A DNA stretch of 34,206 bases from Candidatus Gastranaerophilales bacterium (lineage in GTDB: Bacteria > Cyanobacteriota > Vampirovibrionia > Gastranaerophilales > Gastranaerophilaceae): contig CALUPY010000027.1 in NCBI GenBank assembly GCA_944322755.1, forward strand, positions 1 to 34,206, in the 5' to 3' direction. Every line of letters starts with the position of its first letter. Within the stretch, counting starts at the first letter, position 1. A program made the translations under genes and the position numbers. The notes beneath the pieces were generated by a model. That model searched no databases. It saw only the letters and a list, made by a program, of their open reading frames with translations, and was not told the DNA's origin. This document shows, one piece after another, positions 9,877-30,158 of this stretch.

Positions 9877-10035
9877 TTAAGCCATAATGTTCAAAGAGTT
9901 GCCTGCTGCAAGCGAACCTGCTGTTTCTGCGCCCTGTCCGAAGAGCGGTTGCAATTCCTCGGGCTTTTTGTTATAGGCTAATGAACCCGCTGTCTCTGGT
10001 CTGAAACCGAATGCACCAATTGATTCAATGTTCAT
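9877..10035 (-). CDS. Small protein with duplicated ETAGSLA motif (52 aa)
   Basis: Found by hand. The frame encodes 52 residues starting MNIESIGAFGFRPETAGSLA and contains the heptapeptide ETAGSLA twice (residues 14-20 and 37-43). Each copy is preceded by a Gly/Phe-containing stretch (FGFRP and LFGQGA), so the protein looks like two diverged repeats. 'aaaggag' lies seven bases upstream of the ATG. No signal peptide or membrane helix is visible. The 47-aa membrane protein gene follows on the same strand. The upstream region carries the TATCTCGTA box shared with 1763-1789. Function unknown. Confidence 0.65.
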   Translation of the reverse strand: MNIESIGAFGFRPETAGSLAYNKKPEELQPLFGQGAETAGSLAAGNSLNIMA

Positions 10036-20202: not shown

Positions 20203-20236
20203 ACAAAAAAGCAGCCGTTATTCGACTGCTTTTTGT
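20203..20236. terminator. Bidirectional terminator of the HEAT-like gene
   Basis: AAAAAGCAGCCG (20206-20217) pairs with CGACTGCTTTTT (20223-20234), 12 pairs with one mismatch/G-U position, A-run on one side and T-run on the other. It lies 24 bp past the minus-strand stop at 20260. Confidence 0.85.
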
Positions 20237-20259: not shown

Positions 20260-21219
20260 CTATTTGATTTCGGCGAGTTTTGCAAGACCGTCTTCTGCGA
20301 CTTTTCTGACGTTCGGGTCTTCATCCTGTTTAGAAAGATTGAAAATTTCTTCCATAACAGGTTTGTATTCAGGTCTTGCGTTATAAGCGAGGGCTGCAAG
20401 TCCGCTTGCTCTGAGCATCGGAGAGCTGCTGTCTTTAATCGTTGATACGATTTGTTCCATACCGGGCAGGTCTTTGATGTCAGGTGTAACATTGTTCTTA
20501 GCCTGGAATTCTTTAACAAGCAAATCCTGGAGAATTGCTACGGTAAACAAAGCGTACTGTTTATTTCTGTCAGCCATTTCTTTTTCTGAAATTTTTTGTG
20601 CTTCAGCAGTTTCTTCAGCTGTCAATGTTTTACCATCTGCAAGCTGTTGTCTCAATTCGAGCTGTTTTGGAGTTGCATCCTGAAGTTGTGTTGTATCTTT
20701 AGCAATTACACCAAGCAGGCTTTCCATCAATTCCTGGTCAAGAAGTTGTTTTGCTTCTACAGGATTGTGCTGTGCTATATCCGCAATTTTTTCAATAGCA
20801 GCACCAGCTGTCTCGAGGTTGTCAGACTTTACTTCTGCAGCCATTGCCTTTGTGTCAAGAGTGGAAACGGGCTGAGTCTCCTGCGGAGCCGGCGGAGGTG
20901 TTACTGTAGTCGGTGCCGGAGCCGGAGCAGTCTGCTGCGGGGGCTGAGGAGCCGGAGGTATCACTGACGGCGGTACAGGATTAACGTTCTGGGTGTTCTC
21001 AACCGGAGGCGGTACAGGAACCGGAGGCTGTTGGGAGGGCGGATTATACACCGAGTTTGTCGGAACAGTGTATATTGAGTTTGCTGGTATAGCGTATGTT
21101 GGATCCGGCTGTGCAAATGATTTCGGATCGAAAATCTGAATGTTAACTGCATTAACCTGAGGCTGCTGTCTGTATTGCGGCTGTTGTACAGGAGTATAAG
21201 CTTGTGGTGCTTGTATCAT
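20260..21219 (-). CDS. Proline-rich, HEAT-like repeat protein (319 aa)
   Basis: Three parts are visible. Residues 1-45 hold a Gln/Pro-rich start (MIQAPQAYTPVQQP) and the module NAVNIQIFDPKSFAQPDP (23-40), which is identical in the small protein at 21392-21583. Residues about 46-120 are a low-complexity Pro/Gln/Thr linker (PPAPQPPQQTAPAPAPTT). Residues about 125-319 are alpha-helical and look like HEAT/armadillo repeats (LDTKAMAAEVKSDNLETAGA, and at the end LRASGLAALAYNARPEYKPV and DEDPNVRKVAEDGLAKLAEI). There is no signal peptide. 'gggga' precedes the ATG. I infer a scaffold whose N terminus docks to something the small paralog also docks to; function is unknown. Confidence 0.85.
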   Translation of the reverse strand: MIQAPQAYTPVQQPQYRQQPQVNAVNIQIFDPKSFAQPDPTYAIPANSIYTVPTNSVYNPPSQQPPVPVPPPVENTQNVNPVPPSVIPPAPQPPQQTAPAPAPTTVTPPPAPQETQPVSTLDTKAMAAEVKSDNLETAGAAIEKIADIAQHNPVEAKQLLDQELMESLLGVIAKDTTQLQDATPKQLELRQQLADGKTLTAEETAEAQKISEKEMADRNKQYALFTVAILQDLLVKEFQAKNNVTPDIKDLPGMEQIVSTIKDSSSPMLRASGLAALAYNARPEYKPVMEEIFNLSKQDEDPNVRKVAEDGLAKLAEIK

Positions 21220-21334
21220 ATTTTTCCCCTTTATTAATAATGTCTGGTTTTCTAAATATTTAATAAATATAAAGATTTAAAATTGCTATTTTTTCGTCTG
21301 ATTTTAATAATTCTTAACATATATATTTTTTTGA

Positions 21335-21371
21335 GAAGAAAAGAGCAACTAGATTAACAAAAGCTGCTCTT
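21335..21371 (-). terminator. Terminator of the 63-aa module gene
   Basis: On the minus strand AAGAGCAGCT pairs with AGTTGCTCTT (21341-21350 and 21362-21371), ten pairs with one G-U, 11-nt loop, followed by TTCTTCT. It lies 20 bp after the stop codon. Confidence 0.72.
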
Positions 21372-21391
21372 ATTGTTTAGAGATATGTAAA

Positions 21392-21583
21392 TTAATTAGA
21401 TTTCGGTGCTTCGGGATACTGATAAATCGGTGCTTCCGGATAGCTGTAAGTAGGATCCGGCTGTGCAAACGATTTCGGGTCAAAAATCTGGATATTAACA
21501 GCATTGACCTGAGGCTGTGAGTAAGGTGATTGTTGAACCGGTACCTGCTGGACAGGGGCGTAGTTCTGCGGTGCTTGTATCAT
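21392..21583 (-). CDS. Small Gln/Pro-rich protein sharing the N-terminal module (63 aa)
   Basis: The product starts MIQAPQNYAPVQQVPVQQ and contains NAVNIQIFDPKSFAQPDP at 27-44, then a short Tyr/Pro repeat tail (two copies of YPEAP) and ends KSN. It is in effect the N-terminal module of the 319-aa protein without the HEAT-like body. Start chosen at 21583, not at the longer in-frame 21676, because GGAGG lies five bases upstream and the 319-aa paralog begins with the same MIQAPQ. It has its own terminator, so the two genes are separate units about 170 bp apart. It could be a decoy, adaptor or competitor for the same partner. Confidence 0.78.
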   Translation of the reverse strand: MIQAPQNYAPVQQVPVQQSPYSQPQVNAVNIQIFDPKSFAQPDPTYSYPEAPIYQYPEAPKSN

Positions 21584-21938
21584 AAGTCCTCCATTAAGTG
21601 TCGTTTGTATTTGGATTAATAATTGAAAAGATTTTTTTTTGCTAGTACCTGAAATTTTATTAACAAAAGTTAACAATAAATCCCAAAACCGGCGCGTGGC
21701 AAAGCTTTCTTAGGTGAGTTCTAATCTTAATATACAGTAAAATATAGAAAAAATTATCCCGTTCAGCCTGTTTTTGGCTTTTCCATGCTTTAGATTACAA
21801 CCAACATGCCCTGATTGCAAATGAATAGCAAAAATACATTAAGAAAAATCCCAAAAATCAGACAGCAGGGCTATCTTAGTTTATTGTGGCATTTATTTTA
21901 TTTTTATATTATTTTATTAGTAAATTAAAGGTGCACAA
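21584..21938. other. Divergent intergenic region, 63-aa gene / nadB
   Basis: These 355 bp hold the leader of the minus-strand gene and the nadB promoter. Around 21690-21712 is a GC-richer patch ('accggcgcgtggcaaagc'), and GCCCTG at about 21809 is complementary to CAGGGC at about 21866. I cannot assign either to a known RNA. No open frame with a ribosome binding site is seen. I did not recognise a NadR/NiaR-type operator. Confidence 0.45.
21884..21912 (+). promoter_or_regulatory. Promoter of the nadBC-etfBA operon
   Basis: TTGTGG (21884-21889) and TATTAT (21907-21912) are 17 bp apart, about 26 bp before the nadB ATG. No other promoter is needed for the four genes, which all overlap. Confidence 0.6.
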
Positions 21939-29900: not shown

Positions 29901-29991
29901 GGGCGTTTAGCTCAGTTGCTAAGTGAGGTTTACCTCACGTTTTTAAATAAAGCTTCCCTTGGGAAGTGCGTGAAAATTAAATATATGGTGC
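29901..29991 (+). repeat. 91-bp tRNA-derived unit 1
   Basis: It begins GGGCGTTTAGCTCAGTTG, identical to the intact tRNA-Val, but the D-arm then changes to GTGAGG-ttta-CCTCAC (29923-29938) with a T-run at 29940-29944, a terminator-like hairpin. It rejoins as AAAGCTTCCCTTGGGAAG, where the anticodon loop is lost. At its end TTGGGA (29959-29964) and TATATG (29982-29987) are 17 bp apart and could be a promoter firing at the next unit. It matches unit 2 at 90 of 91 positions. Confidence 0.85.
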
Positions 29992-30082
29992 GGGCGTTTA
30001 GCTCAGTTGCTAAGTGAGGTTTACCTCACGTTTTTAAATAAAGCTTCCCTTGGGAAGCGCGTGAAAATTAAATATATGGTGC
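29992..30082 (+). repeat. 91-bp tRNA-derived unit 2
   Basis: Near-identical tandem copy of unit 1, the only difference being T to C in 'gggaagTgcg'. It contains the same hairpin (30014-30029) and T-run, and the same TTGGGA (30050-30055) / TATATG (30073-30078) pair with 17-bp spacing, which here sits immediately in front of the intact tRNA gene. Confidence 0.85.
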
Positions 30083-30158
30083 GGGCGTTTAGCTCAGTTG
30101 GTAGAGCGCTTCCCTTACAAGGAAGATGTCGGGAGTTCGAGCCTCTCAACGCCCACCA
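30083..30158 (+). tRNA. tRNA-Val (anticodon UAC)
   Basis: A complete 76-nt cloverleaf. Acceptor GGGCGTT pairs with AACGCCC, D-stem GCTC/GAGC encloses AGTTGGTA, and the anticodon stem CTTCC/GGAAG encloses CTTACAA, giving anticodon TAC. The variable loop is ATGTC, the T-stem is GGGAG/CTCTC (one G-U) with loop TTCGAGC, and the discriminator base is A. CCA is encoded at 30156-30158. UAC decodes GUA/GUG and wobble partners of valine. It is the only full-length copy in the locus, is flanked by tRNA-derived pieces on both sides, and is followed by a UUCG-loop terminator. Confidence 0.97.

Follow-up and report, generated by a model that had tools for sequence, protein, structure and literature searches.

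Two neighbouring genes of a bacterium from Candidatus Gastranaerophilales, an uncultured order of cyanobacterial relatives living in the gut, spell the same 24 residues with different codons, which raises the question of what keeps the protein sequence constant and what a small gene built around this stretch might do. The window, i.e., the whole stretch of DNA analysed (34,206 nt, contig CALUPY010000027.1), carries both genes on its minus strand: one encodes a HEAT-like protein, here called HEAT-A, and the other a 63-residue protein, here called the stub. The features of the locus are as follows:

20260..21219, minus strand: HEAT-A, 319 aa, with a predicted P/Q-rich disordered N-terminus (residues 1-120) that contains the module and a predicted all-helical HEAT/ARM domain (residues 123-316)
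21395..21583, minus strand: stub, 63 aa, a module-only paralogue without the HEAT domain
21094..21165, minus strand: module copy in HEAT-A, 24 residues, QPQVNAVNIQIFDPKSFAQPDPTY
21446..21517, minus strand: module copy in the stub, 24 residues, differing from the HEAT-A copy at nine silent positions
21220..21235, minus strand: HEAT-A leader, AAAGGGGAAAAAT, of the HEAT-A type common to several genera
21584..21600, minus strand: stub leader with Shine-Dalgarno sequence, TTAATGGAGGACTT, of the type TTTAA(C/T)GGAGGA also found before stubs of related genera
21341..21371, minus strand: hairpin with a T-rich stretch between the stub and HEAT-A, missed by the consensus scan
20206..20234, minus strand: intrinsic-terminator-like hairpin 3' of HEAT-A

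Both ORFs were confirmed at these positions and on this strand, as was the run of 24/24 identical residues that a preliminary description had reported; the common MIQAPQ start that it had pointed out falls inside a longer alignment. It had counted seven differences in 65 bp, all synonymous: the silence of the changes holds, and the count is corrected to nine nucleotide differences in 72 bp, 9/9 of them synonymous. Under neutrality, such an outcome has a probability of P = 9e-7 by site counting and of P <= 7e-6 in simulations with a transition bias of up to 8. The statement that the rest of the two proteins is unrelated had to be given up, because residues 1-58 of the stub align to the HEAT-A N-terminus at 74% identity (E 3e-16), an alignment that takes in MIQAPQ, the P/Q linker and the Y-x-Y-P side.

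The C-terminal domain of HEAT-A has, by prediction, a HEAT/ARM fold. In an AlphaFold model (38 sequences, single chain), residues 123-316 form a confident helical repeat domain (pLDDT > 90) and residues 1-120 are predicted to be disordered (pLDDT 30-57). Structure comparison of the model retrieved ARM/HEAT repeats (VIA Z up to 15.6), matches which name the fold and not the function because helical repeats often give middling scores; Foldseek gave zero matches at E <= 0.001, and just above this threshold only ARM/HEAT-type structures. Since the HEAT-A of the window scores 15.2 bits against Pfam HEAT_2 (PF13646), below the cut-off of 27.7 bits, it was filed as HEAT-like by its fold and by its homologue L053, which passes that cut-off (30.7 vs 27.7 bits). 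ARM/HEAT repeats are often peptide-binding scaffolds. HEAT-A was matched at E <= 1 in 78 of the 99 relatives searched, which were mostly Candidatus Gastranaerophilales (GTDB), with three weak matches outside the order and no clear homologue there in these searches. As far as searched, it is spread over most of the order and restricted to it, and the N-termini of the homologues nearly always contain a related motif.

The stub adjoins HEAT-A in 4/4 genomes of the window's genus. In the clade that unites this genus with two sister genera (support 100/99; the genus labels of part of the records were inferred from sequence similarity), a stub of 57-146 aa lies directly upstream of HEAT-A in 26/26 of the fetched genomes in which the DNA upstream was readable, and a comparable stub is found in one genome of the distant genus g29. 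The stubs are under purifying selection: whole-stub dN/dS is 0.068 in the window's genus and 0.215 in the sister genus g6, and the stub core of the window's genus has zero residue change at pS 0.72, all of these being pairwise counts over short stretches with near-saturated silent sites, in genomes that are mostly metagenome-assembled. Stub length and the C-side vary between genera. The modules of stub and HEAT-A match by lineage, being identical in the window's genus, sharing NAIKI in g6 and agreeing over 17 residues in g29. The hairpin at 21341..21371 is a possible, if weak, candidate for the terminator of the stub transcript.

The identity of the two copies could in part be a matter of descent. 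Recent gene conversion between the window genes was ruled out, because, at silent sites, the two copies of one genome are as far apart (pS 0.46-0.78) as copies from different species are (0.26-0.98). The stub-type leader is kept across genera and HEAT-A has a leader of its own, AAGGGGAAAA; judged by these sequences, the stubs of different genera are one and the same gene. Within the window's genus, the stubs are much nearer in N-terminus and module to their own HEAT-A than to other stubs (module score 89.5 vs 22.1). Probably, one homogenisation took place in the stem of the genus, before its four species split, and was followed by strong selection on both copies at the protein level; the coding part of the stub would have been overwritten once from HEAT-A by gene conversion or recopying. 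Parallel retention of ancestral sequence is the weaker alternative, conceivable because the HEAT-A of the outgroup g33 also has NAVNIQIY. Because the two copies probably have this partly shared origin, their identity is not wholly due to selection.

The conserved core of the module has the consensus x-A-V-[NK]-I-x-[IV]-x-[ND]-P and is carried across Candidatus Gastranaerophilales by two HEAT/ARM-type proteins, HEAT-A and a second one, HEAT-B. It was found in 49/52 HEAT-A (the three misses have the close variant NAVQINM), 45/46 HEAT-B (the one miss has NVNIIINNP) and 28/28 stubs, frequencies that are not independent because the motif itself had served to retrieve part of the loci; the core is also present in loci that were found through HEAT homology. 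It starts between residues 16 and 86, always near the N-terminus. The A, I and P of the core are near-invariant in HEAT-A, and position 3 is K in 37/49 HEAT-A versus N in 39/45 HEAT-B. In the sister genus the [ND]P cap is apparently not strictly needed, because most stubs there have GA at this place.

Over the first 20 module codons, eight copies from four species have zero residue change with silent sites near saturation. The core gives pN 0 and pS 0.72-0.86 in both genes of the window's genus, and its pN of 0.000-0.020 compares with 0.20-0.29 in the remaining HEAT-A tail. Counted by software, the excess of silent over non-silent change is thus present, which strongly supports the earlier suggestion of protein-level selection on the module. 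The search of the genome and its relatives located the module well beyond the original pair, and the description of the small protein as a standalone version also stands, since all readable genomes of the clade have a module-only gene under purifying selection. Scanned genome-wide with a looser motif, the four congeners gave 6-14 matches per genome vs 1-7 in a reversed control, and besides the stub/HEAT-A pair a few of these recur between congeners. Pattern matches in two viral contigs used as phage decoys both lay inside unrelated phage-type proteins and were judged to be chance.

Most of the order has HEAT-B, usually as a single copy per genome. A sample of 292 genomes from the phylum contained it in 130 cases, of which 130/130 belong to the same family or order and none lies outside; by this survey, HEAT-B seems to be a signature gene for the order. 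The HEAT-B of the window's genome lies on another contig (G000:C1:169838-170530) with the core variant GSVNIIINNP. A small protein with hydrophobic segments, probably a membrane protein, directly follows HEAT-B in 41/43 loci (about 36 distinct places), and in several families and genera HEAT-B, the hydrophobic protein and HEAT-A stand in one row. This order-wide pair, which has no family assignment, is represented by L165:3815-4979 (G000:C1), where HEAT-B is followed by the small protein with hydrophobic segments. For the stub, HEAT-B and the hydrophobic protein, no Pfam or NCBIfam family scored above cut-off, and PHROG matches were weak. The HEAT-B C-termini of families f2 and f3 (L121, L122, L124) read GQ(R/N)LN(I/V/L)(I/M)S-x, and the g6 stubs mostly end in a tail of the type Q-x-(V/I)(N/D)Y-x-A; a shared C-terminal motif is possible from these endings. 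A 52-aa ORF of the window (9877-10035, minus strand), which contains ETAGSLA twice, has the C-terminus LNIMA, like certain HEAT-B ends. LNIMA was rejected as a motif widespread in the genus, its terminal DNA pattern occurring once each in two congeners.

Elsewhere in the window, positions 29901-30158 contain two tandem 91-nt units, 99% identical and each starting with an apparent tRNA 5' half, which directly abut tRNA-Val(tac) at 30083-30158. Positions 1-1050, a region without convincing genes, contain degenerate direct repeats (189 nt at 85% and 49 nt at 80%).

The residues of the module stayed fixed while their DNA spelling drifted, and therefore the module most likely grips a partner; a conserved motif that stands at varying distance from the fold and is shared by two scaffold-type proteins and a module-only protein is what one would expect of a docking site. 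On balance, the module is probably, if by no great measure, a short linear docking motif in the disordered tails of HEAT-A and HEAT-B, and the stub a module-only paralogue that has a leader of its own and may also have a separate terminator. It is plausible that the module docks to a partner, and an adaptor or localisation role fits the same sequence data about equally well. The motif would bind one partner common to HEAT-A, HEAT-B and the stub, by strand addition through its alternating hydrophobic, beta-strand-like stretch capped by [ND]P, and the HEAT domain would carry a second binding activity. By analogy with microProteins, the stub may be a competitor of HEAT-A, which would compete with it for the common partner or modulate it. 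A wider picture, in which HEAT-A, HEAT-B and the small probable membrane protein form an order-specific scaffold system built on one docking motif, with a regulatory microProtein in one clade, is offered only tentatively and is rather doubtful.

Alternatively, the module could dock in the groove of a HEAT domain, either that of HEAT-A in cis or in trans or that of HEAT-B, giving autoinhibition or a scaffold chain for which the stub would be a free ligand. The ARM/HEAT repeats to which the fold comes nearest include many that bind peptides, and module and HEAT domain almost always occur within one protein; however, the single-chain AlphaFold model from 38 sequences leaves the module undocked in cis (pLDDT about 35), and we consider such groove docking unlikely. 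Homotypic assembly, in which the V-x-I-x-I strand acts as a self-matching beta-zipper and the carriers co-assemble as amyloid signalling motifs do, appears distinctly unlikely. The core is indeed beta-prone and set in a P/Q/Y-rich low-complexity context, and a stub and its adjoining HEAT-A have lineage-matched modules, but this matching within pairs is also explicable by gene conversion, the hydrophobic positions alternate with polar or charged ones, and no NLR or Bell-type effector domain was found among the proteins scanned, the module carriers being HEAT-A, HEAT-B and the stubs. Moreover, the modules of HEAT-A and HEAT-B mostly differ within the order, as seen in K vs N at position 3, and a common outside partner is therefore favoured over self-assembly.

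A role of the module as an N-terminal tag for localisation or export, in place of docking to one regulatory partner, would agree with the module's constant place near the N-terminus and with the link of HEAT-B to a hydrophobic, probably membrane, protein; nevertheless, a gene encoding the tag and little else would be needless, the tail as read from its sequence has no long hydrophobic stretch like that of a signal peptide, and the idea is improbable. Highly improbable is an inert stub, i.e., a partial HEAT-A copy whose likeness is maintained by gene conversion: the homogenised N-terminus in the window's genus and the variable length and C-side between genera would suit it, but a gene kept in all 26 readable genomes of the clade with dN/dS far below 1, and with silent differences from its neighbour as large as those between species, argues against it. 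The docking motif with a module-only paralogue thus remains the preferred reading.

Parts of this arrangement resemble known systems, and no paper describing HEAT-A, HEAT-B or the stub was found in the literature searched. The predicted C-terminal domain of HEAT-A has the same fold as HEAT/ARM repeat proteins (Pfam HEAT_2 and HEAT, designed ARM repeats, importin alpha), from which HEAT-A differs in its long disordered tail with the motif and, for the protein of the window, in scores below the Pfam cut-offs. Amyloid signalling motifs of bacteria measure 21-40 aa (PMC12261475). The bacterial amyloid signalling sequences (BASS) and RHIM-like motifs are, like the module, short beta-prone motifs common to neighbouring genes, whereas the module has hydrophobic-polar alternation with a proline cap and its HEAT-A and HEAT-B versions mostly mismatch within genomes; it was not filed under these sequences because an attached NLR or effector is lacking. 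The module is closer to short linear motifs (SLiMs) in its roughly ten conserved positions, its place in a predicted disordered P/Q-rich tail, a core firmer than its flanks and more than one carrier protein. It differs from them in that it matched no known motif class and, in the genomes searched, occurs in one bacterial order only. As the motif occurs in HEAT-A and HEAT-B and also as a natural module-only protein, the stub offers a ready-made bait for the partner.

MicroProteins are single-module paralogues that titrate the partners of larger proteins. The stub is alike in being a small protein that has only the part through which a larger homologue presumably interacts and is encoded by a separate gene under selection; it differs in being bacterial, in adjoining its parent gene and in having a disordered module and not a folded dimerisation domain. 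At the gene level it can thus be grouped with microProteins, the interaction role of its module being presumed. Docking motifs and module-only paralogues are both known kinds; as far as tested, the present instance and its restriction to one lineage are new, and, if the proposed competition is true, the stub would be an example of a microProtein in bacteria whose parent gene is evident.
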